Virus record (IMG/VR): IMGVR_UViG_3300033141_002688
Coordinates: 1-64,000 of that record
Strand: one strand, 5' to 3'
Origin: a virus
Length of the DNA: 64,000 nt
Below the pieces are notes generated by a model. The model saw nothing but the letters and a program-made list of their open reading frames with translations. It searched no databases and was not told where the DNA came from. Shown piece after piece: positions 25,396 through 59,929 of this stretch. Each line of letters opens with the position of its first letter. The first letter of the stretch is position 1. Both the position numbers and the translations under genes were made by a program.

Positions 25396-25674
25396 CTATA
25401 TTGTTATTACATATGCTCCGTATAATGCTATAAAATAGTCTATTTTTGGATGCTCAATTCGTTTTCTTAAGATTAAACCTTTAATTATTCTAATATCCTC
25501 TTCAGAATGAGCGTGGTAAGAGTAAACCTGTGAATCACTCATATAAGTTACTGTAAAAAATTCTCTCTTGCCAATTTTTACTGGCCAAATTGTAACTCTC
25601 CTTCCTTCTCTTAAAATATTGCGTAAAGATTTACTTTTTTTCATCAAACACTGCAAATCTTCCAATTGCTTCAT
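25396..25674 (-). CDS. LLR-KLE family protein (type A)
   Basis: 92 residues. It carries the type A pattern: beta hairpin (REFFTVTYMSDSQVYSYHA), then S-E-E-D-I-R-I-I-K-G-L-I-L-R-K-R-I-E-H. This is the most divergent member I accept: the motif has RKRIEH instead of RxKLEN. Function unknown. Confidence 0.55.
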   Translation of the reverse strand: MKQLEDLQCLMKKSKSLRNILREGRRVTIWPVKIGKREFFTVTYMSDSQVYSYHAHSEEDIRIIKGLILRKRIEHPKIDYFIALYGAYVITI

Positions 25675-26137
25675 ACACCTTCTTTACATATGATTTTGAA
25701 CCACCAACATATTTTAATAAAGCATTTTCCATATTATTGGTTCTACTATAATATAATTTAATTATTTTTGTGCCGTTGTCAATACCAATATCTACTTCGT
25801 GCAAGTCAAATCTACTTTTTATTCCCAGTTTTCTATTCCATATTGACCATCTAACTTGCATCAAGCCCCTTGCACCCTTTGAACTAACAGCCATAGGATT
25901 AAAACTTGATTCTACTTCTATCACTCCCAAGATAATCATATAGGGAATATCATATTTTTTGGATTTCTTGATTATTTCAATAGAAATTTCTCTAGTCAAG
26001 ACAGACGGAACTCTTCGATAATTTGCTTCTATATACTGTTCAATTTTACGAGATTGATCAGCATAAACTGGGACAGTAAAAGATAACAATGTAACTATTA
26101 AGATTACTCTTGAGAGCATATTGTCCAACCAAACCAT
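25631..26137 (-). CDS. Secreted lytic transglycosylase (SLT domain)
   Basis: 168 residues. A signal peptide is clear: MLSRVILIVTLLSFTVPVYA (from Met7), cleavage likely after YA. The SLT catalytic glutamate is in GVIEVESSFNP, with the companion GARGLMQV. It should cut glycan strands outside the inner membrane, so it may be an exported endolysin. ATG at residue 1 or 7 are both possible; residue 7 gives the better signal peptide. Confidence 0.85.
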   Translation of the reverse strand: MVWLDNMLSRVILIVTLLSFTVPVYADQSRKIEQYIEANYRRVPSVLTREISIEIIKKSKKYDIPYMIILGVIEVESSFNPMAVSSKGARGLMQVRWSIWNRKLGIKSRFDLHEVDIGIDNGTKIIKLYYSRTNNMENALLKYVGGSKSYVKKVYEAIGRFAVFDEKK

Positions 26138-26313
26138 TTCTTAGTTTTGTTCTCTAGTTGCTTCCTAAGTAAAAATCCTTTTATGATTTCTCTACCACCT
26201 TCACCAAAATCATCTATAAAGTAGAACTCTCCATCACGTATCATTATATAGTCTATATCCAAATTGACCCATATGGAAGGAGAACCTTCTAATGAAGTCT
26301 TTAGCATTTCCAT
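26104..26313 (-). CDS. LLR-KLE family protein (type A)
   Basis: I start it at ATG 26313 (MEMLKTSLEGSPSIWVN), which aligns with other type A members; a GTG at 26325 with AGAGGT upstream is an alternative. The body has the DIDYIMI/FYFIDD strands, then G-G-R-E-I-I-K-G-F-L-L-R-K-Q-L-E-N-K. It overlaps the start of the transglycosylase gene by 34 nt. Confidence 0.6.
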   Translation of the reverse strand: MEMLKTSLEGSPSIWVNLDIDYIMIRDGEFYFIDDFGEGGREIIKGFLLRKQLENKTKKWFGWTICSQE

Positions 26314-26314
26314 G

Positions 26315-28030
26315 TTATATTTCACAAGTACCTCTTGTACACGACACATCATCTTCGGAAAGAGATGATGTTGATTTACTTAATAATTTTTTAGCTTCTG
26401 AAAGTGAAAGTTTCTGTAATACCTGCCCCTCTCTTGAGCCATCAACATATACTGTTACACCCTTTAAGTCATAAGCGTACTCTAAGAGCCAATCAGATAA
26501 TTGAATTTTAGTTGTTCCTTTTGGAAAGTTAATTGTTTTTGACACTCCTCCATCCGTAAACCTTTGAAATGCCGTCTGAATTTCAAGATGATCCTTAGGA
26601 CTTAAATCTGAAGTATCTACTAACCAATCCGGTAATTTTTTATTCTGTTCAATACACTCTCTAACTAATGGATGAATATAGATTCTCTCACTAACCCTAT
26701 CTTTTCTAATATAAGCCTTAGAAAATAATGGTTCAATAGAGGGGCATACCTCAGGAGTTACCAATAAACTTATTGTACCAGTTGGAGCAATTGCTTGAGC
26801 CGTTACGTTCCTAGTTCCATATCTTTTAATATCCCGTCTTAGAGTTGCTGGTAACTTTCTAACAAAAGATGCTTTTCCATAAGCATGAGAATCAAATGCT
26901 GGAAATGGCCCTTTTTCTCTTGATAACTTTATACTAGATTCATATACTTTATCCCTTATAAATCTAGCTAATCTTTCTGCTTCTGCTATTGATTTTTCCG
27001 ATCCATATTTTATCCCCTTCTTAAAAAGGAAATCTGCAAAGCCAATCACACCTATGCCGATTTTACGACCTTTTTTGGAATTTAATTCTATTTTTTGAAC
27101 TGAGAAATTATTGACATCAATTACATTATCCAGAAACCTAACAATAATTTCTATACTATTTTCCAGTTTTTTCCAGTTTGTTTGAGTACCAGACAAGAAG
27201 TTTGGTAAAACTAAACTTCCTAAAATACATGATTCCCAAGGAGCTAAAATTGCTTCTCCACAAGGATTACTTGATATTGGTGGTGCAAAATAATAACCAT
27301 TATTCTTGGTTAGGTTAGTAAAATTGAGCAGACCTGGCTCACCACATTTTATCATATTAGATAATATTAGATTCCACAATTTTCTAGCAGGTTTTGAATG
27401 AGTCTCTTGTGCTAAAAATTTAAAAGTCCACAATTCATCTTCTTCTACAGCTTCCAAAAATTCATTTGTAATAGCTACAGATATATTATAGTGACTAATT
27501 ATCTTATCAACCAGTTTAGCGTTAATAAAATTTTCCACTTCTGGATGTTCTACTGAAACGCATACAAGTCCTGCTGCCCTGCGTGAACCCCCACTTTGAA
27601 TTGTAGAGGCAACTGAATCTGAAGCCTTTAAGAAGCTGACTAATCCAGTTGACTCACCCCCTTTTCCACGAATAGGGAATCCTTTTGGCCTAAGTGGTGA
27701 GAAATTGCACCCTACTCCCCCTCCCCCACTCCAACAAATAAGAGAATTCTTAATATAATCACCTATTTCCTCAATTGAGTCTCCAATAGGGATGACAAAA
27801 CAATTTGCCAGTTCTCCTTTTAATCTTCCAGCATTTCTAAGTATCCTTCCACCAGGGATAAAATTCATATCAAATATCTCTTGAGAAAAAATATTTGCCC
27901 ACTTATCTTTATCATTCTCATTTACTGCAATAGCATTTCCCACTCTATTACATAATTTCTCCCAATTTTCTCCTTCCATAAAATATCTAGCTTCAGCTAT
28001 TTTTTGAGCATTTTCACTTAATTCTGTCAC
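26315..28030 (-). CDS. nrdJ: Adenosylcobalamin-dependent (class II) ribonucleoside reductase
   Basis: 571 residues. Family blocks: GGRILRNAGRLKGELANCFV, GGGGVGCNFSPLRPKG, QSGGSRRAAGLVCV, NPCGEA with the active-site cysteine (~258), APTGTISLLVTPEVCPS and TINFPKGTT. The C-terminal CTRGTC pair should re-reduce the active site. It reduces ribonucleotides for phage DNA synthesis without oxygen, so the host probably makes or imports B12. It starts at GTG after AAAGGAG and appears complete. Confidence 0.92.
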   Translation of the reverse strand: MTELSENAQKIAEARYFMEGENWEKLCNRVGNAIAVNENDKDKWANIFSQEIFDMNFIPGGRILRNAGRLKGELANCFVIPIGDSIEEIGDYIKNSLICWSGGGGVGCNFSPLRPKGFPIRGKGGESTGLVSFLKASDSVASTIQSGGSRRAAGLVCVSVEHPEVENFINAKLVDKIISHYNISVAITNEFLEAVEEDELWTFKFLAQETHSKPARKLWNLILSNMIKCGEPGLLNFTNLTKNNGYYFAPPISSNPCGEAILAPWESCILGSLVLPNFLSGTQTNWKKLENSIEIIVRFLDNVIDVNNFSVQKIELNSKKGRKIGIGVIGFADFLFKKGIKYGSEKSIAEAERLARFIRDKVYESSIKLSREKGPFPAFDSHAYGKASFVRKLPATLRRDIKRYGTRNVTAQAIAPTGTISLLVTPEVCPSIEPLFSKAYIRKDRVSERIYIHPLVRECIEQNKKLPDWLVDTSDLSPKDHLEIQTAFQRFTDGGVSKTINFPKGTTKIQLSDWLLEYAYDLKGVTVYVDGSREGQVLQKLSLSEAKKLLSKSTSSLSEDDVSCTRGTCEI

Positions 28031-28043
28031 TGTGATTCTCCTT

Positions 28044-28421
28044 TCATAGTCTATTCTCTAGTTTATCTCTTAATCGTTTAGCTTGCTCAAGCCTTTTTCT
28101 CTTTTTTCTATTGAAATATCTCAATACTAATAGAGTTATATAGATAATAATGGCTACACTCGTAGCTAACCATAAAAATGCCAAACCTATCCATATAACA
28201 AGACTTAGCCATAAATACATCCATATTTCTGAATCAAAGTCAACCCACCGACCACCTGGTATTTTCTTAATCACAAATAAAACTGGTGAATCTAAAGATT
28301 CTTTCTCGACTACAAATTTATACATATGATATATAGCCTGAGTGATCATCAGAATTATAATATAACCCCAACCTATCATTAAGAACCAACTAGCAATCTC
28401 TAAATATAATTTACCAGTCAT
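28044..28421 (-). CDS. Membrane protein with C-terminal LR-KLE tail
   Basis: 125 residues with three predicted spans (about 8-30, 65-80 and 83-103). The last residues are AKRLRDKLENRL, the short motif that recurs across this genome. The stop lies just before the ATAGACTATG sequence upstream of nrdJ. No function recognised. Confidence 0.6.
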   Translation of the reverse strand: MTGKLYLEIASWFLMIGWGYIIILMITQAIYHMYKFVVEKESLDSPVLFVIKKIPGGRWVDFDSEIWMYLWLSLVIWIGLAFLWLATSVAIIIYITLLVLRYFNRKKRKRLEQAKRLRDKLENRL

Positions 28422-28869
28422 AATGTTTATTCTCCAATTTAGCTCTTAAGTTTTGTACCATAAGAGATCTTGCTTCTTCTTCCGAAACTACATATATTTC
28501 AAATGAAGAGAATGCAGATCCACATGTTATTTTGTGACCATTGAGTGCAAATACTCTTAATAGACCACTCTTTGGTAAACAATCTATAGACCATCCAGAT
28601 GGGGGGATTGCCTCTGGTACTGTACCATATTTTTTTAACCAGTTGAACCCATTTCCCCCAATACCATCTAAATGTAGTACATCGGACATTCCAGATAGTA
28701 AACATTTTGGTTCATTTCCAACAACTGCAACAAAATCCATACAACGAAAACCAGAATCATGTTTACGTCTAGTTGGAAGTATTACTATAGAATCACAGAT
28801 TATCATATCATTTCGTTTTCTATAAGGTAAAGACTCAAAATCCTTGCGTGTCATATCTACTATATCCAT
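28411..28869 (-). CDS. Unknown protein with C-terminal LR-KLE tail
   Basis: 152 residues. A beta-rich body (DSIVILPTRRKHDSG, MDFVAVVGNEPKCLLSG) ends with E-E-E-A-R-S-L-M-V-Q-N-L-R-A-K-L-E-N-K. The tail overlaps the next gene's ATG by 11 nt. The body has no recognised family. Only the tail is shared with the other family members. Confidence 0.6.
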   Translation of the reverse strand: MDIVDMTRKDFESLPYRKRNDMIICDSIVILPTRRKHDSGFRCMDFVAVVGNEPKCLLSGMSDVLHLDGIGGNGFNWLKKYGTVPEAIPPSGWSIDCLPKSGLLRVFALNGHKITCGSAFSSFEIYVVSEEEARSLMVQNLRAKLENKHYDW

Positions 28870-38157: not shown

Positions 38158-39173
38158 TTTTCACCTCCTTGATAATACTCTGGATACTTATCAAATAAAA
38201 GCTCAGGGTGATCTTCCAGTAACTTCTCAACATTAAATTCATTATAAGATTTGTCTTTGTAAATCACAGTCTGTTGCCTAAACTTAGAAAACTCTTGCTT
38301 GTTTTTAGGTTTTAAATATCCCCGTTGTACCAAGAACCTGATATATCCACCATAATAAGGAATACCTTCTTTATAGAAAAATGGGATATAACATGTCCGA
38401 TAACATGGGCCTAATCTAGTCTTCTGAACTTCAATTCCTATCCAGTTTCCTACAACTTCACCTCCCTTCTTTGAATCCATAATTTTAAGTTTATCTTCCA
38501 ATGCAAACCTGTTAGTATTAAAATATCTCAACCCTTCTCCCCCTGCAACTCTCTTTGGATCACCAAACATCTGTCCAACATTATAATAAAAATGATTTGC
38601 AATTAATAACATTACTTTTTTATCAATTATTGGAAAGAGCTTTCTGAGACCATCCTTAATTGATTTAGCACGTCTACCACTATCTGATTTATCAAGATCA
38701 ACATCCTTATCAAATGCCTGAATAGAATCTATAATACCAACAATATAAGTGTCCCCATCTTCTTTCCTAATTAAGTTTATAGTATCTATAAGGAAATTGA
38801 ATGCATCAACTACCAATGGAGTATCTTGTGGGCCAACTTTAATCATCTTATCAGTATCTATACCAAGTTCGGTTGCACGTTTATTCGTAAGAGCACTCTC
38901 TCTATCCACTATAACACCAACAGCATCATACTTTTTCTGAGCATTCGCTAGAATCTGCTGAACAAAAAGACTCTTCCCACTCTGTGAAAATCCAACAAAC
39001 TCAGTCATAACCCCAAATGGAATTCCACCTTCACTTATCAAATCAAATGTCAGATTACCGGTGGATACGAAATCGGATGGATCTTCGCTTTCTGATACTA
39101 CATTGACATCCTTATACTTTTGCTTTAACTGGTTAACAACCTTGGTTATATCCATCAGTACATTCTCCATCAT
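38154..39173 (-). CDS. RecA/UvsX-like recombinase
   Basis: 339 residues. Walker A GFSQSGKS (~60), the GVIVDRESALTNKRATELGID block, Walker B GIIDSIQAF (~147), and the L2-like NHFYYNVGQMFGDPKRVAGGEG. The C-terminal third is phage-specific. It should coat single-stranded DNA and drive strand exchange with the SSB at 39542 and SbcCD. Confidence 0.88.
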   Translation of the reverse strand: MMENVLMDITKVVNQLKQKYKDVNVVSESEDPSDFVSTGNLTFDLISEGGIPFGVMTEFVGFSQSGKSLFVQQILANAQKKYDAVGVIVDRESALTNKRATELGIDTDKMIKVGPQDTPLVVDAFNFLIDTINLIRKEDGDTYIVGIIDSIQAFDKDVDLDKSDSGRRAKSIKDGLRKLFPIIDKKVMLLIANHFYYNVGQMFGDPKRVAGGEGLRYFNTNRFALEDKLKIMDSKKGGEVVGNWIGIEVQKTRLGPCYRTCYIPFFYKEGIPYYGGYIRFLVQRGYLKPKNKQEFSKFRQQTVIYKDKSYNEFNVEKLLEDHPELLFDKYPEYYQGGEK

Positions 39174-39540
39174 ATCTATCTTCTAGTTTATCTCTTAGTT
39201 GTTTTGCTAATCGTTGTCTAATACTCTTGTATGACTCATAGGAATGCAACAGGTGTTCAAGATTCCACAATGAGAAGTATAGAGAAATAATAACCCAGGA
39301 AAGGGTAGAGATACCAAGAAAAAGTATACCATAATTTTTAGATTTAACAAAACAACTAATTGATAATGTTAATAAAGCAATAAATATAATCATAAATCCA
39401 ATACCACATAATGAATGAATAACATCATGCCTTAGCTGATCTTTCATAGTATCCAAATGGTTTTTCTCCCATTCAGTCTCAGCAGTAAGAACCAAATTAG
39501 GTCTTTTAATATGAAGTCTAGCATTCGGTGAAATAGTCAT
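39133..39540 (-). CDS. Two-span membrane protein with LR-KLE tail
   Basis: 135 residues; two adjacent spans (about 45-65 and 72-92). The end reads RQRLAKQLRDKLEDRYDG, the recurring motif. The coding end overlaps the recombinase start by 41 nt. Sits between SSB and recombinase genes. Confidence 0.6.
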   Translation of the reverse strand: MTISPNARLHIKRPNLVLTAETEWEKNHLDTMKDQLRHDVIHSLCGIGFMIIFIALLTLSISCFVKSKNYGILFLGISTLSWVIISLYFSLWNLEHLLHSYESYKSIRQRLAKQLRDKLEDRYDGECTDGYNQGC

Positions 39541-40917: not shown

Positions 40918-41057
40918 TTCTTCTGCCTCTTTATACATTTCCTACATTCAAATGCCTTTTCTCTAATCTTCTTTTCACAAACCTTTTTATGAATTCTAAC
41001 ATTTAAAATTGAACAATAAAAATAATCACTCTCTTCTTTATTATAATCCTTTTTCAT
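40914..41057 (-). CDS. 47-residue basic Cys-rich protein
   Basis: ATG 41057 overlaps the previous TGA (ATGA) and the stop overlaps the next ATG (ATGA). Sequence includes FYCSILNVRIHKKVC and FECRKCIKRQKK: four Cys and a His, like a small zinc finger. Overlap at both ends supports expression. Confidence 0.55.
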   Translation of the reverse strand: MKKDYNKEESDYFYCSILNVRIHKKVCEKKIREKAFECRKCIKRQKK

Positions 41058-45712: not shown

Positions 45713-47332
45713 CTAAATTGTCAATTCAAATTTCATATTTCCACAATCAAATATTCTATAATAACCATTCTCATTCATATTCTCAACTTCTGTTTTATTC
45801 GGATTGAATGTTTTTAATTTTTTATTCAATACACTCTTTCTAAAATTGAATCTATGAATCAAATTATAAGGATTTTTTAATGAGAAATACCAATAATTAG
45901 GATCAGTATAATGTACAAAATTAAAACCTAATCTCTTATAAAGATTACCATCACTCCAGCGTCTATCTGCATAAGAGATTATTTTAATAGGATTGTAATT
46001 ACTAATGAAATATTTCAATAGCTTAGATGCTACTCCAACTACCCTAAAATTATAATTAGAACAGAATCGGTCAAGTTCATAAGTGTTAATTTCACTTTTG
46101 GAACCCTTAGCAATATTAAGTTTTCTAAAAGTCATAACTGATACTAACTCATCATTATGAAAAGCACCTAGTTTCACTGTTGAACCGTTGTATCCTTGAA
46201 GATGAAACTTATCAATAAAATTTCTGGCTGATTTAGCGTCTATCTTTCTTACTGTACAATTTCTAGCAAAGATTACTTCAGCTTCACTAATATTTAGAAT
46301 ATCTTTTAACCTTCTTTTTACTATTTCTTTTTTCAACATCCATTCATTTTCAAATATAGTGATGAGTCTATAATTATTAGAATTACATCTTTCCAATTTG
46401 TCCAATTGACATTTCTTATTCTTTCTAACTTCATTAGAGTGCCAATACAAACCACAAAACTCAATAGCCGTCTTTTTGCTTGGGATCACTATATCTAGTT
46501 CAAGTGGTTTGATTAAAGTTCTGTCATTGTTTACTATGTCTGAGAAATTAGGTTTTAGGAAATTAAATAGTTCGTGTTCCATCTGTGAAGTATTTGAATT
46601 ACACTGAGGGCATCTTCTGCCTTGTTGCCACTCGTTCCACCGAATATCGTGTTGATGACCATTAGGACAGACATATTTTAATTTCTCCTTACTATTGCTA
46701 TATTCCTTAGTTAATAATTTGTAACCTTCCTTTTCAAATGATTTTCCTATTTCTTCTATAGTTTTTCTCATATTTCCTGCACAATAAGGACACCTGACTC
46801 CTCGTTGCCAGGCACTCCATTTTATTAAATGTTTGTGTCCCTGAGGACAGATATACTCTAATTTTTGCCTACTATTTTTGTATTCTTGAGTCAGTAGAGT
46901 ATATCCTTCCTTTTCAAACGCTTGTTTTACAGAATCCAATCCTAATCTAGTTTCATTCATTTTACAATATTTACACCTACTTCCTTGTTTCCACCTTTTC
47001 CAAGTAATATAATATCTATGACCATTTGAACATATAAATTCAAGTTTTTGATATTGATTTTCATATTTCCTAGTTAGAAGTTTATACCCTTCTTTTTCAA
47101 ATTCCTTTCTTATAAAATCAATTGTTAATTTCTTCTTATCTGATCTTTCTATCACCCCACAAATGTTACATCTATGACCTTGTTGCCACTCATTCCATCG
47201 TATTAAACCTATATGATTATTAGGACAAATATATTTCAACTTTTGTTTATTATTTTCATATTCTTCGGTTAGAAGAACATAACCTTCATTATTAAATTGA
47301 GATTTTATAAATTCCAGATCAAGTCTCTTCAT
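45713..47332 (-). CDS. Homing endonuclease with four zinc-ribbon repeats, Vsr/EDxHD-like nuclease and GNAT-like domain
   Basis: 539 residues from ATG 47332; this start overlaps the helicase stop by 14 nt. Residues ~1-245: four repeats of the same ~60-residue C-P-x-G-H / C-x-x-C unit as the 9245 gene. Residues ~255-345: LELDIVIPSKKTAIEFCG, LYWHSNEVRKNKKC, RLITIFENEW, the Vsr-related EDxHD homing nuclease pattern. Residues ~385-500: YELDRFCSNYNFRVVGVASK and SYADRRWSDGNLYKRLGF, a GNAT/Mom-like fold. It lies immediately behind the helicase gene. Confidence 0.8.
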   Translation of the reverse strand: MKRLDLEFIKSQFNNEGYVLLTEEYENNKQKLKYICPNNHIGLIRWNEWQQGHRCNICGVIERSDKKKLTIDFIRKEFEKEGYKLLTRKYENQYQKLEFICSNGHRYYITWKRWKQGSRCKYCKMNETRLGLDSVKQAFEKEGYTLLTQEYKNSRQKLEYICPQGHKHLIKWSAWQRGVRCPYCAGNMRKTIEEIGKSFEKEGYKLLTKEYSNSKEKLKYVCPNGHQHDIRWNEWQQGRRCPQCNSNTSQMEHELFNFLKPNFSDIVNNDRTLIKPLELDIVIPSKKTAIEFCGLYWHSNEVRKNKKCQLDKLERCNSNNYRLITIFENEWMLKKEIVKRRLKDILNISEAEVIFARNCTVRKIDAKSARNFIDKFHLQGYNGSTVKLGAFHNDELVSVMTFRKLNIAKGSKSEINTYELDRFCSNYNFRVVGVASKLLKYFISNYNPIKIISYADRRWSDGNLYKRLGFNFVHYTDPNYWYFSLKNPYNLIHRFNFRKSVLNKKLKTFNPNKTEVENMNENGYYRIFDCGNMKFELTI

Positions 47333-48998
47333 AAAACCTACTTCTAGCTCCATCAAATGTCAAGATTGATTTTCCTCCCTGTGAAAATCTACTTTTTGGA
47401 ATTACAATAGAAGTTTCTGGAGAAAATACTTCATTAGATAAATTAGATTTAGTTTTGGCTCTATACATCAGGATAATATCATCAGCATCAGCAGGTATTG
47501 CTGCACTTCCTTTCAAGTCATCCATTATTAACTCTCTACCCCCTGTTTTACGAGGTTGAGATACTAATAAAAATGGAATATCTAAATCCATAGTTATATC
47601 TTTGAACATACCACTAGCCTTTGCCATATCAGATTCTTCACCGGTTCTAATCATTCTTTGAAGATTATCAAATATACCAAATTCAACTCCATATCTATTC
47701 CTAACTTCTTTCATTGTTTCGTAGAATACTGAAGGTTTTATTCTAGGAGAATAACCAAAATAAAGTGGTAAGTCTTTTAATTCTTGTTGATAAATCAGAG
47801 CATCTGAATAATCAACTTCTTCAAGTGTAAAACCATAATGGAGTTGTATGATCTTTGTTACTAAACTGATCTCTGACATCTCCAGACAGAATACAAGTGA
47901 TGGTAATTTATATTCCTTGGCAAAATGGTATGCTATTTGAATTGACATACTTGTTTTTCCTACACCAGGACTGCCACCGAGTACAGTTAACCTACTCCTA
48001 GCAAACCCCCCATTGAGAAGTCTATTAATATTTTTCCAAGGCAAAGCAAACTTCTCCTGTATATCCTCATCTTGAGATTTTTCATACATTTGAAGGAAGA
48101 CTTCTTTGATAGATGAAACACCAACTACTTCAAATCTTTTTGCCTCTTTTATTAGTTTTTCAAAATCTTCCTTTGTATATGACATGAAAAATTTATTAAC
48201 ATCATATCCCTTTGGTAAAAGAACATTCCAGCATTTTCCTCTTCCAAGTCGTGTAGCCCACACTTTCTCTGCTGCTTTCTGACCTGGGAGATCTGGATCG
48301 AAAATCAAATAGAGTTTTTCTTTTAACCTTAATCTCTCCTGCCATTCTGGTAGTAAAGTACCAGCACCACCGGTAATTCCCACCACGTTTTCATAGCCAT
48401 TCTGTATTAATGTTATAGTATCAATTTCCCCTTCCTGAATAAACAGTTCATTATATTTTTCTATAACATCTCCATTAAATAATATACTCTTACCACCTTT
48501 TTCTCTTTTATATTTATCCATTTCGGGATTCTCAGGTGGAATCTGGCGATATTTGATGTTTTTTGGTATTCCATCTTCATAAATCGGAATAGATATCCAA
48601 TCATGGTTATCAAAATGAATAAAACCAAGTTTAAATCTTTTTATCATTTCATCTGATATATTCCTTGAATAAATATATTTCATACCTTTGCTTGACTTTA
48701 AAAGATTTTTATGATATCTCTCAACTTGTATTGAATAATCTGGATCATCTGTTTTTTGTTTTACTAATCTTGAGATTGGGACTATATCTCCCCAAAGTTC
48801 CTTTAACTTTGAAAAATGCCCACGTGCATATACATTCTCAGGCTCTTTAGCTTCACATCTAAAACAATGGTATACTAAACTCTCAGTATTAATATAAAGC
48901 TTCTCTTTTCCACAATTTGGGCATTTAATTATTACTTCCTTACCACTTATTTTGTATTCTATATTTTTTTTATCAAGATAAGATATTACTTCTTCCAT
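47319..48998 (-). CDS. Primase-helicase (T7 gp4/Twinkle type)
   Basis: 559 residues. N-terminal zinc finger CPNC...CFRC; TOPRIM primase block FIQEGEIDTITLIQNGYEN, VGITGGAGTLLPEW and YLIFDPDLPGQKAAEK; then a DnaB-type helicase with Walker A GGSPGVGKTSMS (~345), FGIFDNLQRM (Walker B, ~445) and SAAIPADADDIILMYR. It primes and unwinds DNA at the fork with the polymerase at 41711. The natural end (FDGARSRFYEET) is intact, so the endonuclease gene sits behind it without cutting it. Confidence 0.9.
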   Translation of the reverse strand: MEEVISYLDKKNIEYKISGKEVIIKCPNCGKEKLYINTESLVYHCFRCEAKEPENVYARGHFSKLKELWGDIVPISRLVKQKTDDPDYSIQVERYHKNLLKSSKGMKYIYSRNISDEMIKRFKLGFIHFDNHDWISIPIYEDGIPKNIKYRQIPPENPEMDKYKREKGGKSILFNGDVIEKYNELFIQEGEIDTITLIQNGYENVVGITGGAGTLLPEWQERLRLKEKLYLIFDPDLPGQKAAEKVWATRLGRGKCWNVLLPKGYDVNKFFMSYTKEDFEKLIKEAKRFEVVGVSSIKEVFLQMYEKSQDEDIQEKFALPWKNINRLLNGGFARSRLTVLGGSPGVGKTSMSIQIAYHFAKEYKLPSLVFCLEMSEISLVTKIIQLHYGFTLEEVDYSDALIYQQELKDLPLYFGYSPRIKPSVFYETMKEVRNRYGVEFGIFDNLQRMIRTGEESDMAKASGMFKDITMDLDIPFLLVSQPRKTGGRELIMDDLKGSAAIPADADDIILMYRAKTKSNLSNEVFSPETSIVIPKSRFSQGGKSILTFDGARSRFYEET

Positions 48999-49345
48999 TC
49001 AAGTTTTCTCCTTAATTCTACACCTAATTCTTTTCTTTTTATTATATGATGTGCTAAAAGTAGAATCACCTTCTGCATTAACATTTTATAACCTTCAGAA
49101 GAGAAATCATGGAGACTGGAAAATACAAAATTGTCATCTTTTGAAAAAAGAGTACTTTCGGAAAAATCAAACTGTAAATATAAATATGGAAGATCAACAT
49201 ATAATATGTCCCATTTAATATTGTAAGACCTACATAATTCTTTAAATATCATGTCTAAATCATCTTCAGGCAGACTATCAAATGGAGATAGAATATCATC
49301 TTTCAATCTATATAAATCATCTAATTTATCAAGGTTGTATTTCAT
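48986..49345 (-). CDS. Unknown protein with C-terminal LR-KLE tail
   Basis: 119 residues, acidic body (DDLDMIFKELCRSYNIKWD) and end IIKRKELGVELRRKLEWKK. The tail overlaps the helicase start by 13 nt. Confidence 0.58.
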   Translation of the reverse strand: MKYNLDKLDDLYRLKDDILSPFDSLPEDDLDMIFKELCRSYNIKWDILYVDLPYLYLQFDFSESTLFSKDDNFVFSSLHDFSSEGYKMLMQKVILLLAHHIIKRKELGVELRRKLEWKK

Positions 49346-49592
49346 ATAAACCCAAGTTTTTTATTAGTTCTTTTCTAGTTAAATTTGGTAAATAAGATTT
49401 ATAATATATGAATAGGAAATCAATCTCCAAAGAATATAATAATGGTGGTGTCTTTTTCAATAAAACATTTTCTATTTCTACAGGAGAAAAAAAGAAATGG
49501 CGTTTTGAGAAGATATTCTCTAACCGCATCCTTAATAAAACTGCATCCCTATATCTTGTTAAGTCATTTAAAGTATAATTATATTTCTTCAT
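49329..49592 (-). CDS. LLR-KLE family protein (type B)
   Basis: 87 residues: YTLNDLTRYRDAVLLRMRLE at the front, YYKSYLPNLTRKELIKNLGL at the end. Lacks the basic tail of the 41054 paralog. Overlaps both neighbours. Confidence 0.63.
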   Translation of the reverse strand: MKKYNYTLNDLTRYRDAVLLRMRLENIFSKRHFFFSPVEIENVLLKKTPPLLYSLEIDFLFIYYKSYLPNLTRKELIKNLGLYEIQP

Positions 49593-50865: not shown

Positions 50866-51057
50866 TTACTTTTCAAATTCCTTTCTAAACTCCTCTTGTA
50901 TTTCATAATATTTTTTATTTTCCAATTTCATTCTCAGAATAAATCCTTTAAGTTGTTCTTTAGTTATTTCTTGAGAAGTAGGGAATTGATAAGAGTCATT
51001 TCCAATATTGAATAATATATATTTCTCATCAAAATCTATTGGAATATTACGAGTCAT
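50866..51057 (-). CDS. LLR-KLE family protein (short type A)
   Basis: 63 residues: FDEKYILFNIGNDSYQFP, SQEITKEQLKGFILRMKLEN and KKYYE. The shortest type A member, keeping just one or two strands plus the motif helix. The stop is followed by a stretch without genes up to the initiator start. Confidence 0.58.
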   Translation of the reverse strand: MTRNIPIDFDEKYILFNIGNDSYQFPTSQEITKEQLKGFILRMKLENKKYYEIQEEFRKEFEK

Positions 51058-51231: not shown

Positions 51232-51540
51232 TTAACCTCCTTGCTTTCTAGCATAAACTTTTCTATCTATAGATCTGTCTATGGATAATTTGGTGGAATA
51301 CCCTAATAAATTTAATAACTTCTTTCTATTTAGTTTTGGTAAGTAAGATTTATAATATTTATATAGTATCTTGATTTCTTCAGGGAAAAGAAATCCCATG
51401 GGCTTTTCTGGATATTTAAGCGTACGTTCTATGAAATCTATATTTATTGAGGGATTCTTTTGACGTTCTAATCCTTCAAGTTTCATCCTCAATAGTATAA
51501 CATCTTTATATTTTCTTAAATCTTCGATTACGTAATTCAT
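51232..51540 (-). CDS. LLR-KLE family protein (type B)
   Basis: 102 residues: MNYVIEDLRKYKDVILLRMK front, YYKSYLPKLNRKKLLNLLGY end region, basic tail. Closest in layout to 41054. Overlaps the upstream gene by 35 nt. Confidence 0.63.
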   Translation of the reverse strand: MNYVIEDLRKYKDVILLRMKLEGLERQKNPSINIDFIERTLKYPEKPMGFLFPEEIKILYKYYKSYLPKLNRKKLLNLLGYSTKLSIDRSIDRKVYARKQGG

Positions 51541-52003
51541 TCAGATTTGTATATTTGGGACTTAATCTAGATCTATCCATATACCTATGTCTTAAGTAAT
51601 TCTCTCTTAACTTTGATTCTGTTTTATATCTTTCTCTTTTAGGATATAGAATCTCTTCAGGCAATCCTAAAGATTTATTCTCTAATTTAGACCTTAATAA
51701 ATATCCTTGTAATTCTTTTCCTAGTTTACTATTTTTCTTTATTTTTCTATACTTAAAGGCTTTTTCTGAATCTGTAGCAATACTCATAGCGTTGAATGTT
51801 TCCAACTGTCTTAGAAAGAATCTCATACAATTGATACAGATGTTTTCATATCGTGGTTTCTTAAATTCGGTTCCTTGATTACCTACAAAGTATATAAAAC
51901 CTCTCCAACCATTTAGCATTGACAGATGGTATTCGTGTGGAAAAATTTTATTACCACAATAGTGACATTTTCTAGTTCGTTTTGCTTTACATAGACTAAG
52001 CAT
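51506..52003 (-). CDS. Zinc-finger protein with internal LR-KLE motif
   Basis: 165 residues. Front: CKAKRTRKCHYCGNKIFPHE, then CINCMRFFLRQ, giving CxxC...CxxC. Middle: GKELQGYLLRSKLENKSLG. End very basic. It combines a zinc ribbon with the recurring motif. Possible nucleic-acid binder. Confidence 0.62.
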   Translation of the reverse strand: MLSLCKAKRTRKCHYCGNKIFPHEYHLSMLNGWRGFIYFVGNQGTEFKKPRYENICINCMRFFLRQLETFNAMSIATDSEKAFKYRKIKKNSKLGKELQGYLLRSKLENKSLGLPEEILYPKRERYKTESKLRENYLRHRYMDRSRLSPKYTNLNELRNRRFKKI

Positions 52004-52205
52004 AGACTCTTACCTTTCCTTCCAATTTCTTTCTTAAAATTATACCATCTAGTTTCTTTTTGATTCTACCAAATTTAGGGATTCTTTCTATCACATGATG
52101 CATTGTTTCATTACTAGTATTGACTTGCCAAACTATATAATTAATAGTAGGATCAATAAATACTCTACTTGAATCTTCAATCTGTCTTAAATCATTATCA
52201 TTCAT
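51996..52205 (-). CDS. LLR-KLE family protein (type A)
   Basis: 69 residues: INYIVWQVNTSNETMHHVIE strands, then GRIKKKLDGIILRKKLEGK at the end. Overlaps the helicase stop by 4 nt. Confidence 0.6.
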   Translation of the reverse strand: MNDNDLRQIEDSSRVFIDPTINYIVWQVNTSNETMHHVIERIPKFGRIKKKLDGIILRKKLEGKVRVYA

Positions 52206-53755: not shown

Positions 53756-53783
53756 AATATAATCATCGTAGTTTATTTGTCAA
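53756..53783 (-). promoter_or_regulatory. Sigma70-type promoter
   Basis: TTGACA (53778-53783), 16-bp spacer ending GAT, TATATT (53756-53761) on the minus strand. It overlaps the stop of the upstream gene. Near-identical in pattern to the promoters at 41687 and 53638. Confidence 0.6.
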
Positions 53784-54412
53784 GAGTTGCATACTATTTT
53801 AAATCCTCTTTCTGTTTTCAATAGATAAAAGTGAAAATATGTTGATATTTTTGAATATTTGCTAATAGTCTGAGAATCTGCCTGGAATTTTTGTTTAATA
53901 AATCTTTGAAGATAACGAGAATATTCAGTATGAGTAAGTGGCCATAGACGTTTTGAATTATCTATAAGTCTATTATTTCCTCTTTTCTTTCTTATACTAT
54001 TGTACTCTTTAAATATTCGTGCTAACATTGTTTTACTCAGTCTTGGTAAATGAGTCTTATAACTTTTTATTACTATATCAGGAATTGCTGAATAATCCCA
54101 ATAGGTATATTTTGTTGGATCTTGAAGAAAGTTAATAATCACTTCATTCTCTTTTAATTTTGGAGATAACTGATAGTTTAGGAGTGCAACTTTTCTATAC
54201 TTCATTATATCAGTCATTGTATAATCTTTTCTCTTTTTCTTTGGTACGTAAGCTGACATCTTCTGATAGCAGTTTGAGCATTTTATAAACTTCTTTGGAG
54301 GATTCCATCGGCATAATTTATAGTAAGCTTCTCCCTTCTCAATTCTCTCTTTACATACATCGCAATAAATTTCTTCTGATCCTCCCCAATTAATTCTATA
54401 ACTATACCCCAT
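53780..54412 (-). CDS. Zinc-ribbon protein with diverged LLR-KLE type B region
   Basis: 210 residues from ATG 54412, placed by an AAGGAG site. Front: CDVCKERIEKGEAYYKLC, KCSNC (zinc). Middle: YTMTDIMKYRKVALLNYQL, then YKTHLPRLSKTMLARIF, a diverged copy of the type B module where LLRxKLE became LLNYQLS. Tail basic and aromatic. Function unknown. Confidence 0.62.
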   Translation of the reverse strand: MGYSYRINWGGSEEIYCDVCKERIEKGEAYYKLCRWNPPKKFIKCSNCYQKMSAYVPKKKRKDYTMTDIMKYRKVALLNYQLSPKLKENEVIINFLQDPTKYTYWDYSAIPDIVIKSYKTHLPRLSKTMLARIFKEYNSIRKKRGNNRLIDNSKRLWPLTHTEYSRYLQRFIKQKFQADSQTISKYSKISTYFHFYLLKTERGFKIVCNS

Positions 54413-54423
54413 CTTATTTCTCC

Positions 54424-55566
54424 TTAATATATTTTGATTACTTCTCCAAATGGAGTTTTCCAATTGGTTTCGTCATTGGAAGTAGTAGATCCCAAAATCC
54501 ACAATACTGGATAATCAGGAATTTCTCTTGGGAATGAATCACAATAACCATCAGTATAATAAATAACACATAGTGGTTCGATTCCCTGTTCTTGTAGCCA
54601 TTCAAACCCAGGTTTATAATCAGTTCCACCACCACCTTTAGGATGAAGGTTTAAAGGTACGTCATTTTGAGTAATAACTTCGTGGCCTGCAACATGAGAA
54701 TCTACATAAATTATTAGTAACTCAAGCTTTGGAAACATTGATAAAATTCCCATTATTTCGGATGCACACTCAGTAATTTCTTTTTTTCCTTGACTCCCTG
54801 AAGTATCCGCAAGGAAAACTATTTTTCCAACTTCTTGAGAATATAAACTAGGTAAATAGAAACCCTGCTGAATCCATTTTTTATTCGGGAGTTTCCAACT
54901 ATAATCATCTTTGACAGTAGTGGTTATAAATCTGGCTAAAATTTCTCTCCAAGGTAATCTAGCTCTCCTCAGTCTATCCATCAGTCTTTCTACTTCTGCT
55001 GGTACACTTCCTTGCATCTTAGATGCTGCATAAGCTTGAGATACCATCATGTCAACTTGTTGAGATGCCTTTTTTAAATCTCCATTTCCCTTTTTTGGAT
55101 ATGGTTTTACCATACCATGCTGATTCATTTTTTCACTTGCTACAAGAATTTGTTTGATATTGTTACGTTGTAGGAGTAATTCATAGATTTCTTCTGCTGT
55201 TTTTCCTTCTACTTCTGATAATCTTATATTAAAAGATTTAACTATTTTTTCAAGGTTTGGATTGTTCAGTAAACCTGCCTTATGAAGAACAGGGTCTATT
55301 GTTAAATCTGCTGCTATATTCCATATTTCTAAAGCGAATTCATGTTTGTTAGAACATAATTCGGCAAATCTTATATGATGTTTAGCTATAATGTGCCAGG
55401 CTTCATGGATAAGAACTCCTCTTATTTCCTCTACTGTTTTTCCTTCTATCCATCTTGGGTCAATTAATATAGATAATCCGTCTGTAGCCATTGTTGGAAT
55501 TTCTTTTTCTACTTCTTTTCCATTCTCTATTGTTAATACCTTAAAATCTGTCTTTTCAATTTTCAT
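54424..55566 (-). CDS. VWA-like metallopeptidase-type protein (DUF2201-like), MoxR partner
   Basis: 380 residues. Zinc-type motif HEAWHIIAKHH (~52), then a VWA/MIDAS-like domain with FLADTSGSQGKKE (~247) and GGGGTDYKP (~313). Coding continues upstream of ATG 55566 without a stop (DKIQKAKSSLILDSVLSFYA), as relatives have. No ATG, GTG or TTG is available there; ATT 55641 sits nine bases after AAGGA. It pairs with the AAA protein at 55966 as in other MoxR-VWA systems. Confidence 0.82.
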   Translation of the reverse strand: MKIEKTDFKVLTIENGKEVEKEIPTMATDGLSILIDPRWIEGKTVEEIRGVLIHEAWHIIAKHHIRFAELCSNKHEFALEIWNIAADLTIDPVLHKAGLLNNPNLEKIVKSFNIRLSEVEGKTAEEIYELLLQRNNIKQILVASEKMNQHGMVKPYPKKGNGDLKKASQQVDMMVSQAYAASKMQGSVPAEVERLMDRLRRARLPWREILARFITTTVKDDYSWKLPNKKWIQQGFYLPSLYSQEVGKIVFLADTSGSQGKKEITECASEIMGILSMFPKLELLIIYVDSHVAGHEVITQNDVPLNLHPKGGGGTDYKPGFEWLQEQGIEPLCVIYYTDGYCDSFPREIPDYPVLWILGSTTSNDETNWKTPFGEVIKIY

Positions 55567-55646
55567 ATCAAGTCTATAGAGAATTGTTGCATAAAAGGAA
55601 AGAACAGAATCTAAGATTAAAGAAGATTTAGCTTTTTGAATTTTAT

Positions 55647-55985
55647 CTAAATCCTTATTTCTCTAAAGTATACGATGTGATGATTATCAAATAATCTAAT
55701 AGTTTTAGTGGAAAATCCCAATGATTTCAATAGCTTAGTCTTAGTTAATTTAGGTAAATGTGGTTTATAACACTTCAATAGAAAGTCTACTTCCCAAGTA
55801 TAAAGATAACTAATATCACAACTTTCAGGTTCCCATATAATATCCTTAATCATTTCACTAGGGAGTCTTAGTTTACCACCATATTCATGGTATCCTTTGA
55901 AATTTTCAAGTTTGAGTCTCAAAAGTATAGCTTCTCTACATCTTTTTAAATCTTTTATAGTATATCTAATTATATTTCGGTGCAT
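55647..55985 (-). CDS. LLR-KLE family protein (type B)
   Basis: 112 residues: YTIKDLKRCREAILLRLKLE front, CYKPHLPKLTKTKLLKSLGF end. Lies between the two MoxR/VWA genes, which makes it a candidate third component there. Confidence 0.63.
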   Translation of the reverse strand: MHRNIIRYTIKDLKRCREAILLRLKLENFKGYHEYGGKLRLPSEMIKDIIWEPESCDISYLYTWEVDFLLKCYKPHLPKLTKTKLLKSLGFSTKTIRLFDNHHIVYFREIRI

Positions 55986-57063
55986 ACTTTTCAGCCCATT
56001 TGTGATATGCGGAGTGTCCAGCTAGTTCAGGATGCCTAGCAAGAGTATCTTTAAAAAATGCTAATACATATTCGGCATGAGCAATACCATTTTCAAAATT
56101 TTTATGGTTATACCACCTTTCAAAATATTTAATAATATTACTTAAGTTTTTCTTACTAGCATAATTAGCTAAGGCTGCACAAATAGCCCATTCTACTGTG
56201 GGATCTTGTGGTATGATTCCCTTTTCTGGATTTTCAATAATTTTTTTGACATCAGGAAGTTCTTTATAAATCTTGTAAAATCCCAATACTTCGCCAGCAA
56301 AACCCTGTCCTGCTATTCCTGTAAAAACATCAAACCACAAATGTTCAGGCCATTTTTCGTTTACTACTTCTCCACAAGCTGCAATTGTTCTAGGACATGG
56401 ACTACCAATAATATCGTTTGTTGGTTCCCAATCAGTTAGAAAATTAGGTCTATATCTTATTGCTCCTATCAACCAAGCTGGTAAACCTTTTCTATGTGCC
56501 CATTTACACCATCCTTCAACGTCTACCTCAAGATGATATATTCCACCTAGCATTCTAGATTTAATAGGTTCTAATATTCCTGTAACTGCTGCCTTATCTT
56601 GTCTTCTGTTAGTGTTTATTCCAAAGACTACATTAGGGCCAATAGGTTTATTGTCAAGCTTTCTTTCTAGAGTTAATTGCATAGCTGCTGCTTGAGTAGA
56701 TGGTGCTGACTGTCCAAAATCTTCGAGTCTAACATAAAGAATGTCTTTAGAGTGAATTAAGTCTCTTAAGAATCCTATTGGCAAAAATTCAGCCACCTTA
56801 GTAGTCTTTCCATCTTCCGTGATATTGTCAACTACCCAAGGCAAACCAGAATAATTAGATGGATCATGGACTACCGGATGTGCAACGATGGATTTTATTT
56901 TCATTTCTTCTACTATTTGCTGATCCAGTTCCGATTTTCCAATTCCAGGTCTACCTACCTTCATATGTGGTCTTCGTGTTTCAATACATTTTCTAATAAT
57001 TTCCAACATAGTATCATGGTTTACAGTTACGATGTTGCTTATTCTCTCACTTTTTTTACTCAT
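55966..57063 (-). CDS. MoxR-type AAA+ ATPase
   Basis: 365 residues. Walker A GRPGIGKSELDQQ (~44), Walker B-like LYVRLEDFGQSAP (~112), sensor block VVFGINTNRRQDKAAV (~145). MoxR ATPases act as chaperones with a VWA partner; the partner gene follows. Own AAAGGAG ribosome site. Confidence 0.85.
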   Translation of the reverse strand: MSKKSERISNIVTVNHDTMLEIIRKCIETRRPHMKVGRPGIGKSELDQQIVEEMKIKSIVAHPVVHDPSNYSGLPWVVDNITEDGKTTKVAEFLPIGFLRDLIHSKDILYVRLEDFGQSAPSTQAAAMQLTLERKLDNKPIGPNVVFGINTNRRQDKAAVTGILEPIKSRMLGGIYHLEVDVEGWCKWAHRKGLPAWLIGAIRYRPNFLTDWEPTNDIIGSPCPRTIAACGEVVNEKWPEHLWFDVFTGIAGQGFAGEVLGFYKIYKELPDVKKIIENPEKGIIPQDPTVEWAICAALANYASKKNLSNIIKYFERWYNHKNFENGIAHAEYVLAFFKDTLARHPELAGHSAYHKWAEKYAPKYN

Positions 57064-57196: not shown

Positions 57197-57436
57197 TTAA
57201 TCACCAGAACAGTTTAGTAGTTTAAGTAATTCCTTTTTAGTTAAATGAGTTAAGTATGGTTTGTAATAGTTGAATAGTAAATTCAGTTCATCCTTATATA
57301 GAGATCTCCAAAGGTCATGTGCTTCTGATGGATATTTAATAATTAATTTTATTACTTTACTATTATTATTTTCTAATTTCATTTTTAGCAATATAATATC
57401 TTTATACTTTTCTAAATCTTTAATAGTGTAATTCAT
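57197..57436 (-). CDS. LLR-KLE family protein (type B)
   Basis: 79 residues: MNYTIKDLEKYKDIILLKMK then LENNN; end YYKPYLTHLTKKELLKLLNC. The shortest B member; confirms that the two ends are the conserved parts. Confidence 0.63.
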   Translation of the reverse strand: MNYTIKDLEKYKDIILLKMKLENNNSKVIKLIIKYPSEAHDLWRSLYKDELNLLFNYYKPYLTHLTKKELLKLLNCSGD

Positions 57437-58005
57437 TCCATTTTTGCTCCTTTTGGAATAGGTTTATCACCATAATTCTTAATTTTAATCCAATCAATAG
57501 ATGATCCATCCCAATATTTTGAGTTTGAGTTCCTGATAACCAATCCTTCCCATCCTTCACTGAAGATTCTATTTTTCAATATTAAAAGATCTCTTTCATT
57601 TTCAATTATCCAATTAGGAACTACTGACAGGTATTTAGTTTGTGGATCAATCTGGTTGAGTATTTCAAATATTTTGAAGGGAGATTCATTACTGTAATCT
57701 TTATTTTCTAATAATATAATATTCCATAGTCTCAATTTCAAGTTATCAGAGCATTTATTTCTCAATAATCCATAAAAATCTTTGTAGGTTCTACCATCTT
57801 TATAAATCAGTTCACCTAGATAAATGCCATCTGGTAATCTTCGCCTAGCAATTTCAGTAATAGGGCATTCAATTCTTATTCTACCATATTTTGGTTTGTT
57901 TATTAGTAAGGCTTTGGTGTTTTTCACGATTAGATATTCCATTTCACCGTTGTATCTGAACTTTAATACAGGCATTTTGAAAGATTTATCCATTTTGTAT
58001 TTCAT
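57433..58005 (-). CDS. ATP-dependent DNA-ligase-like adenylation domain, motif I altered
   Basis: 190 residues. Motif IV EGLVIRNSNSKYW and motif V WIKIKNY are clear, and LPDGIYLGELIYKDG fits motif III. Motif I should be K-x-(D/N)-G but reads F-R-Y-N-G-E, so the nucleophilic lysine is arginine (one base change, AAA to AGA). No OB domain follows. Probably inactive, a different nucleotide-binding use, or a sequence error. Confidence 0.68.
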   Translation of the reverse strand: MKYKMDKSFKMPVLKFRYNGEMEYLIVKNTKALLINKPKYGRIRIECPITEIARRRLPDGIYLGELIYKDGRTYKDFYGLLRNKCSDNLKLRLWNIILLENKDYSNESPFKIFEILNQIDPQTKYLSVVPNWIIENERDLLILKNRIFSEGWEGLVIRNSNSKYWDGSSIDWIKIKNYGDKPIPKGAKME

Positions 58006-58289
58006 TTTATCTCCTTCGCTCTTTTTGATTTTAGGTCTTTTTCTATTATACTGTTTGCACGACCTTTATTTGACCAATTAAAAGATTCAATTGTAGGTTT
58101 CTTATTTTCAAGCTTCATTCTAAATAGCCATCCTTTAATATATCTTTTTTCTTCTCTGGTTAAATTCCTAATAATATAGAAATTTTCTTTATGGTCTATA
58201 CATATATTATACATCTTATGGTTTGAATAATCAATAATTATACTAGAATCAGGGAGATCTAGTAATTCTTTAAGTTTGTTTATTCTCAT
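58002..58289 (-). CDS. LLR-KLE family protein (type A)
   Basis: 95 residues: SSIIIDYSNHKMYNICIDH, FYIIRNLTREEKRYIKG, then WLFRMKLENK. Very close in plan to the five tandem copies at 44,209-45,709. Confidence 0.62.
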   Translation of the reverse strand: MRINKLKELLDLPDSSIIIDYSNHKMYNICIDHKENFYIIRNLTREEKRYIKGWLFRMKLENKKPTIESFNWSNKGRANSIIEKDLKSKRAKEIK

Positions 58290-58479
58290 ATGTTAAATTT
58301 TTCCCTTCCAATTGCTTTCTCAAAATGAAAATTTTGATAATTTTTTTGTAGTCAAAACTTAAATTAATTATTATTGGGATGCTGTATTCCTTATTATAGC
58401 ATTTTATCTCTATAAAATCATTGTTAAATACTATCTGCAGTTTATCATATTTCTCTAAAACATTTATTATTTTTCTCAT
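58270..58479 (-). CDS. LLR-KLE family protein (type A, short)
   Basis: 69 residues: KLQIVFNNDFIEIKCYNKEY, DYKKIIKIFILRKQLEGK at the end. Overlaps the previous member by 20 nt. Confidence 0.58.
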   Translation of the reverse strand: MRKIINVLEKYDKLQIVFNNDFIEIKCYNKEYSIPIIINLSFDYKKIIKIFILRKQLEGKNLTYENKQT

Positions 58480-58811: not shown

Positions 58812-58825
58812 ATTAAATCTCCTTT

Positions 58826-59143
58826 CTATTCATAATATTTATCTTCAAATAGCTTTAATTGTTTATTATCCAATTCAAAATCAATCATTGATTTAGCGGA
58901 TTCCAATAGACCATTAGTTTCAAAATCATTACCATAAAAACCTCCACAATTGTCAATTATTTCTCCATCTTTATTTATAACATTATAGCAATAGATATTT
59001 CCCATTAGATAATCATTGTATATCTTTACTTCATTTCTCAATATTTCTTTTACTTTTTCTTCTAATTTCTTGGATATTCTTTTCACGTTAAATTCATTCC
59101 TTATTTTCTCTTTATCCGCTACAATCCAGCCTATTTGGGCCAC
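58826..59143 (-). CDS. Phage DUF protein, C-terminal part after frame change
   Basis: The front (IGWIVADKEKIRNEFNVKRI) continues directly from the end of the 59112 ORF (DPWDSG). Removing one C from the CCC at about 59138-59140 joins both into a single reading frame. GTG 59143 is therefore probably not a real start. The remainder is the acidic end of a common phage protein of unknown function. Confidence 0.6.
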   Translation of the reverse strand: MAQIGWIVADKEKIRNEFNVKRISKKLEEKVKEILRNEVKIYNDYLMGNIYCYNVINKDGEIIDNCGGFYGNDFETNGLLESAKSMIDFELDNKQLKLFEDKYYE

Positions 59144-59402
59144 TATCCCAAGGATCTTGAAAATCGTTAATACTCATTATTAATCCGGAATGATCAAGAA
59201 GATACAAGGGATAAGAGATATTTTCCTTTGCATATTCTCTAGCTTCTTCAACTAAAAAATTATGCTTGTCTCCTAGTAAATATCTTTTATGAAAGCAAAT
59301 CATTTCTCCTAAATTATCCCATTCTCTAGGTGATTCTAGTATGTCATCCTGGTAGATCTTAATACTATATCCTTTATAATCTATTTCTTTTATAGCTTCC
59401 AT
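59112..59402 (-). CDS. Phage DUF protein, N-terminal part before frame change
   Basis: Residues 1-85 (YKGYSIKIYQDDILESPREW, DNLGEMICFHKRYLLGDKHN, LYLLDHSGL, DPWDSG) belong to a widespread phage/plasmid protein of unknown function. After DPWDSG the frame ends quickly in unrelated PNRLDCSG. A single extra C explains the break. Confidence 0.62.
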   Translation of the reverse strand: MEAIKEIDYKGYSIKIYQDDILESPREWDNLGEMICFHKRYLLGDKHNFLVEEAREYAKENISYPLYLLDHSGLIMSINDFQDPWDSGPNRLDCSG

Positions 59403-59404
59403 TT

Positions 59405-59929
59405 TTAACCTCCATTAATTGATTCTTCGATTTTTCTTCTGAGATATTGACCTTGAATCTTTTTGCCTTCTTCTGAATTCGGATCAATTTTCTTTATTCT
59501 CATGTATTCTTGGGGGTTGTTATATTTAGTTATACCTTTGATTTTCAAATAGAGATTAGGATAAACATCTTGAAGAAGTGGGGTGTCACAAGTACCATTA
59601 TTAAGGTCTATTATCATATTATCCTTGAAAAGCCATAAAGTTATAGGATGTGATCTTTTTTGGACTATCCATACATCATAAAATTGAAATACAGAATAAT
59701 TAAGAGGCAGAAAAGTACTAATTCTCTCTTTTGTAGTAGAAGTTTTTCGACCACCACTATTCAATATTATTTTATTGTCAGGTAAGTATTTAATTATATC
59801 TGTATAATAATATCTAATTACTCTTTCTTTTTTGGAGTTCCAGTATTCTACTGTATTATTTCTAACAGTGAATCTGCTTTTTTGGATATCATCAATTCCT
59901 TTCAATATCTCAGATTTCTTAAGTCTCAT
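59405..59929 (-). CDS. Unknown protein with C-terminal LR-KIE tail
   Basis: 174 residues. Beta-rich body that looks like a typical phage protein (TDIIKYLPDNKIILNSGGRK, NYSVFQFYDVWIVQK). End: SEEGKKIQGQYLRRKIEESI, a variant of the recurring motif. Confidence 0.6.
   Translation of the reverse strand: MRLKKSEILKGIDDIQKSRFTVRNNTVEYWNSKKERVIRYYYTDIIKYLPDNKIILNSGGRKTSTTKERISTFLPLNYSVFQFYDVWIVQKRSHPITLWLFKDNMIIDLNNGTCDTPLLQDVYPNLYLKIKGITKYNNPQEYMRIKKIDPNSEEGKKIQGQYLRRKIEESINGG

Follow-up and report, generated by a model that had tools for sequence, protein, structure and literature searches.

A short motif shared by two orphan gene families and five unrelated C-terminal tails in one phage: a candidate docking helix

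Gene content of the window and its motif carriers

The window, i.e. the whole stretch of 64,000 bases analysed here, comprises bases 1–64000 of a 69,301-base IMG/VR virus record and has a GC content of 33 %. An arm with the tape measure gene and lambda-J-like tail genes lies on the plus strand, and the minus strand from around 19 to 64 kb holds replication and nucleotide genes together with many small orphans. Named from family matches or recognised by sequence, these minus-strand genes include those for a ribonucleotide reductase, an SbcCD-like pair, RecA, a gp32-like protein, a primase-helicase, a replication-initiator-like protein, an SNF2 helicase and a polymerase A with a uracil-glycosylase-like N-terminus. 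The gaps between the conserved replication genes are where around 26 small proteins sit that share the motif LR.KLE or a variant of it, numbered here from the first leucine (L0, R1, K3, L4 and E5); four of them lie beyond the window, at 66099–66359, 67236–67472, 67468–67719 and 68560–68877 of the record. All carriers were found at 25–60 kb on the minus strand or at 66–69 kb on the plus strand (record coordinates), and none in the tail-gene arm or among the first minus-strand genes (about 1–25 kb). Therefore, the motif, which a preliminary description of this DNA had called genome-wide, is confined to the early and replication arms. The 22 window proteins listed in that description (12 of type A, five of type B and five with C-terminal tails) are all open reading frames (ORFs) that contain the motif.

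Type A is one gene family with 11 proteins in the window and three beyond it (66099–66359, 67236–67472 and 67468–67719, plus strand), i.e. 14 members, plus a chimera. In the window, where all copies are on the minus strand, it includes a divergent member at 25396–25674 (GLILRKRIEH, L0 codon at 25470), which was recovered at E 1e-6 by a profile (A6) made without this copy, and a second one at 26104–26352 (KGFLLRKQLENK, L0 at 26169; A6 profile E 8e-8). Five genes form a tandem array, four of them identified by pattern search, i.e. 44209–44490 (GFILRNKIESK, L0 at 44337), 44481–44798 (GWLLRMKIEGK, L0 at 44618), 45069–45389 (GWLLRQKLENT, L0 at 45209) and 45386–45709 (GFVLRNKLENN, L0 at 45514), and the fifth, at 44779–45066 (GFLLRDRLENN, L0 at 44886), by pattern and profile. 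Pattern and profile also identified three short members, at 50866–51057 (GFILRMKLENK, L0 at 50937), 51996–52205 (GIILRKKLEGK, L0 at 52037) and 58270–58479 (IFILRKQLEGK, L0 at 58323). The member at 58002–58289 (GWLFRMKLENK, L0 at 58124), found by pattern, served as the AlphaFold query. In the chimera at 51506–52003, recognised by sequence and profile, a Cys4 zinc-ribbon-like N-terminus is followed by a type A strand–helix piece (GYLLRSKLENK, L0 at 51697).

Directly upstream of the tandem array, 45713–47356 (minus strand) encodes a 547-aa protein in which repeated CapR-like zinc-finger units are succeeded by a stretch resembling a restriction nuclease and by a Mom-like region (Pfam E 6e-6); from its sequence, the protein is possibly a homing-type or DNA-modifying enzyme. 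The second carrier cluster (66099–68877) is located on the opposite, plus strand at the far end of the record and consists of three type A genes and one type B gene; its type A proteins have a cysteine at the variable motif position (LRC). By sequence, the 412-aa product of 62940–64178 (minus strand) combines several Cys-rich LIM-like units with an amidoligase-like domain.

The type A model was of high confidence (mean pLDDT 93.8) and comprises a helix, three strands, a helix at residues 45–60 corresponding to the motif, a strand and a final helix, so that the motif is predicted to form the second of three helices in a small alpha/beta domain. When compared with the PDB, the best match was a ribosomal chain at the eL38 position (Z 6.4, rmsd 2.7, 66 aligned residues), and such chains dominate the match list, in which the FtsH N-domain also appears (Z 5.0, rmsd 2.6, 61 aligned); none of them reaches the level at which a match is telling. 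The best Foldseek match had an E of 0.029, and no match with an E under 0.001 was obtained in a viral structure library. The PDB comparison of the model therefore suggests a common small alpha/beta arrangement only, below the level that shows kinship.

Type B is a second gene family, with five members in the window, one outside (68560–68877) and a degenerate one (53780), i.e. six plus one. Its window members, again on the minus strand, are located at 41054–41410 (ILLRMKLEG in the first helix, L0 at 41362; identified by sequence and model, and used as AlphaFold query), 49329–49592 (VLLRMRLEN, L0 at 49535), 51232–51540 (ILLRMKLEG, L0 at 51492), 55647–55985 (ILLRLKLEN, L0 at 55922) and 57197–57436 (ILLKMKLEN, L0 at 57388), with 49329, 51232 and 57197 retrieved by pattern search. 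The copy at 55647 is 75 % identical to 68560–68877 outside the window (dN 0.16, dS 0.59), and pairs of type B paralogues show dN/dS values of about 0.24–0.28, indicating purifying selection. The model of this family was weaker (mean pLDDT 75, about 81 over the motif helix) and places the motif in a helix at residues 12–26, ahead of a C-terminal part that looks winged-helix-like. Its top structure match, 5vfy, the pCW3 relaxosome accessory protein, is of low significance (Z 4.0, rmsd 4.1, 77 aligned), and the Foldseek rows, including PerR, FoxP3, FOXN3, QsrR and PadR, all had E > 2. Structure prediction, one of the checks suggested in the preliminary description, thus predicted the motif to be helical in both families.

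The degenerate member at 53780–54463 (minus strand) combines a zinc-ribbon-like N-terminus with a type B domain, and its motif reads ALLNYQLS, lacking R, K and E; the protein was recognised by an A5 profile lacking 53780 (E 1.4e-6). The Cys4 zinc-ribbon-like N-termini of 53780–54463 and 51506–52003 (both minus strand) are similar and are joined to a type B and a type A piece, respectively, as if modules had been exchanged between the two genes. By sequence, one type B gene separates the gene of a metallopeptidase/VWA-like protein from that of a MoxR-like AAA ATPase (54424–57063, minus strand), a combination that is unusual in phage.

In five otherwise unrelated proteins, likewise encoded on the minus strand, the motif forms the C-terminal tail. 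Two of these are membrane proteins, i.e. a three-TM-like one at 28044–28421 (RLRDKLENRL-stop, L0 at 28073), whose tail is clear of the ribosome-binding site of the gene that follows, and a two-TM-like one at 39133–39540 (QLRDKLEDR, L0 at 39198; found by pattern), where no clear ribosome-binding site is present. As a basic segment precedes both tails, they should be cytosolic according to the positive-inside rule. The tails of 28411–28869 (NLRAKLENKHYDW-stop, L0 at 28449) and 48986–49345 (ELRRKLEWKK-stop, L0 at 49015) coincide in part with the downstream gene's ribosome-binding site, in the latter case AAGGAG. These two tails carry less weight as evidence than the remaining three, because the need for a ribosome-binding site could favour such codons; the notion that tails merely spell ribosome-binding sites can apply to these two of the five only. 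The fifth protein, 59405–59929, matches a known phage domain, PHROG 554, over residues 16–93 (E 4.9e-5), and its motif (GQYLRRKIEES, L0 at 59443) is located in a C-terminal extension past this domain, clear of ribosome-binding sites. Mimicry of the FtsZ C-terminal peptide and prohead-protease sites were also considered for the tails and rejected, as the residues needed for either are absent.

Statistical support and constraint on the peptide

The strict form LR.KLE was present in 12 window proteins compared with a mean of 0.065 in shuffled proteins (maximum 2 in 1,000 shuffles), and the looser form [LIFV][RK].[KRQ][LIM]E[NGDSEW] in 22 compared with 0.64. Since shuffling ignores helix-like residue patterns, real proteins were added as a control: LR.KLE did not occur in other phage loci (1,872 ORFs, 428,950 aa). 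Among all 5-residue patterns in the phage it ranked top (13 ORFs vs 0.055 expected), and in the kin and other phages any 5-residue pattern was limited to four ORFs at most. The motif is therefore far above both shuffled proteins and real phage ORFs, which speaks against the chance origin that the preliminary description had named as a way to refute it. A six-frame search with the looser form gave 24 matches, 21 of which were listed copies; the other three, at 36304 (nuclease subunit), 1478 (tape measure protein) and 60525 (non-coding frame), are probably due to chance. With a profile seeded on both families, which contains its seeds by construction, every seed scored >27 bits and the best shuffled match 13.7, and the A6 profile of five members recovered seven further copies at E 8e-8 to 0.014.

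Enrichment is also evident for the tails. Outside the two families, L[RK].[KRQ][LI]E was found in 5/101 ORFs, in all five cases at most 30 residues from the C-terminus, and in the controls this position was seen in 1/1,872 ORFs (1/488 among the low-GC ones).

That the codons differ from copy to copy, as stated previously, is right, and the case is stronger than it had been put. Codon identity between copies equals the expectation from genome usage at L0 (observed 0.25, expected 0.25), R1 (0.47 and 0.47) and L4 (0.26 and 0.25); at K3 it is somewhat above and at E5 below the expectation. The DNA thus retains hardly any memory, whereas the residues are kept, therefore selection holds the peptide. 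These figures bear directly on the idea of a mobile DNA repeat that was inserted in-frame and has no protein function, as in Rickettsia palindromic elements, which are DNA repeats leaving a similar peptide in unrelated genes. A similar peptide within unrelated genes is just the leftover that such elements would be expected to produce; however, DNA similarity beyond coding need, which is the hallmark of the Rickettsia repeats, is saturated here, with no DNA repeat left at codon identities of random expectation. This explanation is largely refuted, and we regard it as hardly tenable.

When the profiles of types A and B were compared, 17 motif columns aligned and nothing else (E 0.001); in the models, the motif helix is common to both families, and the surrounding folds differ. 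Across type A, type B and the tails, nearly all copies have G, A or V at −3, L0 is common to all three contexts, R1 is present in all copies but one, +3 is K, R or Q, +4 is L or I, and +5 is E (Q in two), followed mostly by N, G or D at +6, i.e. a helix-stop residue; position −7 is usually basic. On a helical wheel, an arc of about 140 degrees covers −7, −3, 0, +1, +4 and +5. In types A and B, where the helix is within a domain, the residues at −1, −2 and −5 or −6 are hydrophobic, and in the tails they are mostly polar. The simplest reading of these sequences is that the helix has two faces, one that would pack into the protein's own domain and another common to all contexts.

A face of this kind could also serve self-assembly, i.e. 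the motif would be an oligomerisation surface, and proteins of type A, type B and the tail group would use it to associate with one another in mixed oligomers or a scaffold. The hydrophobic L0 and L4 together with an R1–E5 pair (i, i+4) would suit helix–helix pairing, as would the many co-encoded copies, but no heptad pattern continues past the one helix, and we consider self-assembly unlikely.

The degenerate type B protein provides a natural control. In 53780, L0 and L4 of the type B helix are kept and R1, K3 and E5 are lost, and since the protein stays recognisable, the type B sequence family can do without the charges. The loss bears on the main rival to the docking function that had been proposed for the motif, i.e. 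that two ordinary orphan gene families simply expanded. The helix would then be structural, with no common partner, types A and B would share it via an ancient fusion, and the tails would be type A remnants or partly coincidental. Such an expansion is possible, if rather doubtful. It agrees with type A being a single family that includes five genes in tandem and type B another, with the chimera-like appearance of 51506 and 59405, both seemingly retaining the type A strand–helix piece, with N or G at +6 as a typical helix cap and with the two tails that overlap ribosome-binding sites. However, near-invariant R1 and E5 are unusual in a helix of purely structural role, these charged residues appear alike in a helical fold (type B), an alpha/beta fold (type A) and tails that belong to no domain, 53780 is still a type B protein after their loss, and the enrichment in tails is strong.

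Relatives and kin phages

In Pfam and PHROG, neither type A nor type B had a match above the cut-off; the best ones were weak, mutually inconsistent and restricted to one member each (two at most), i.e. E 0.0049 and 17.7 bits in Pfam, where the cut-off is 25 bits, and E 0.0047 in PHROG. A weak match of one type A protein to PHROG 24170 was dropped; at E 1, this PHROG was absent from this phage and its kin. Nothing credible was found with tblastn in GenBank phages, nor any relative in IMG/VR (profiles A2 and A6, and degenerate DNA patterns), in GTDB genomes (profiles A5 and A6) or among PDB sequences, in collections that may omit records very near the window's own. A looser IMG/VR pattern yielded 11 single matches, mostly outside plausible genes and none of them near a type A or B gene.

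Kin phages were identified via the DNA polymerase, i.e. two partial contigs (L013 and L097, 51 % identity) and IMGVR_UViG_3300033149_002604 (L014, 45 % identity). All three keep the order polymerase, SSB-like protein and RecA, L013 and L097 also the primase-helicase. The gaps of these kin contain no type A or type B genes, and the tail proteins had no match there either. Judged by sequence, the two families look like a lineage-specific expansion. The kin L014 has repeats of its own in several gaps between replication genes (9400–14750), consisting of intergenic 10-base units every 18 bases, in which AAGCGAGCCA alternates with AAGACACCCA and 8 variable bases lie between, resulting in a 36-base period; some of these repeats end just before a gene start.

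Even if the helix is only structural, type A is an orphan family of considerable size, for which a fold was predicted with confidence and no relatives were found by sequence.

A candidate docking helix and comparison with known systems

In our estimate, there is an even chance that the motif acts as a docking helix, short and amphipathic, which this phage lineage has used again and again to link many accessory, fast-evolving early proteins with a single shared partner. The helix, placed second in type A, first in type B and as a C-terminal tail in five others, would bring each carrier to the shared partner, and the specific activity, i.e. DNA binding, a zinc ribbon or membrane anchoring, would come from the remaining part of the carrier. 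The partner would probably be a cytosolic host or phage early machine, e.g. of transcription or replication. That the common face is exposed, that it binds and that the partner is a single one, we infer from the sequences.

From the original proposal of about 20 proteins docking to one partner, the helix shared at the protein level in unrelated contexts has stood, but part of the count reflects ordinary paralogy. Although all of these proteins carry the motif, they amount to about seven independent contexts and not to 20 independent acquisitions, because types A and B are each one gene family. Docking would still be the best explanation, because the same face is found in helices that otherwise differ, the codons are saturated, five tails are terminal, and 53780 keeps the leucines after losing R, K and E. 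Several points stand against it: in the type A model the helix lies against the sheet, so that part of the conservation may be due to packing; N or G at +6 and the basic residues near the helix end are ordinary helix-capping features; and much of the carrier count is shared ancestry, with two of the five tails overlapping ribosome-binding sites.

It is tempting to go further and to speculate, as a tentative but reasonable possibility, on a general docking code made by the phage, in which one helix on at least two folds and on several unrelated proteins, membrane proteins included, sends a large and quickly diversifying set of early effectors to one hub. If true, the code would be a phage counterpart of the adaptor strategy of eukaryotic viruses, for which we found no prior description among phage early proteins, and a common target would be assigned at once to around 26 uncharacterised proteins. 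The strategy would then be one of a shared plug with interchangeable modules, and peptides with randomised codons and kept residues in unrelated proteins of one genome would offer a route to the targets of phage dark matter.

As the preliminary description had it, no described system fits: no account of such a phage motif was found in the literature. Partial likenesses exist. In bacterial AAA+ proteases, short tails of the SspB/UmuD type tether an adaptor to its hub, a likeness that we take as a lead only, since the phage motif has no sequence match to these peptides beyond LR.

The T4 capsid targeting sequence is N-terminal and is removed by the head protease. The T-even internal proteins that carry it are described as a highly diverse set with the conserved targeting sequence alone in common (PMC3012670), and the likeness lies in diverse, fast-evolving phage proteins sharing just a short sequence. 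By the same logic, the motif could be a virion-packaging tag, with the carriers being loaded into the head and injected, which we consider very unlikely: the carriers are encoded in early and replication operons among polymerase, primase-helicase and RecA, not among virion genes, and the motif, unlike that of T4, is helical and lies inside a folded domain in type A, at the C-terminus in the tails and at the N-terminus in type B only, with two of its carriers being membrane proteins.

In poxvirus ankyrin/F-box (PRANC) proteins, variable modules are tied to one host machine by a docking element that the family has in common (PMC9414399), which is the same adaptor logic of one docking element and variable modules. 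In contrast to the roughly 10–20 residues on several unrelated scaffolds of a bacterial virus described here, that element is a whole F-box-like domain with a known partner, the ubiquitin ligase SCF, and the phage families have no Pfam match of any kind, so only the logic is compared. By analogy, the motif would work most like the T4 capsid targeting sequence or the poxvirus ankyrin/F-box adaptors, as a member of neither.
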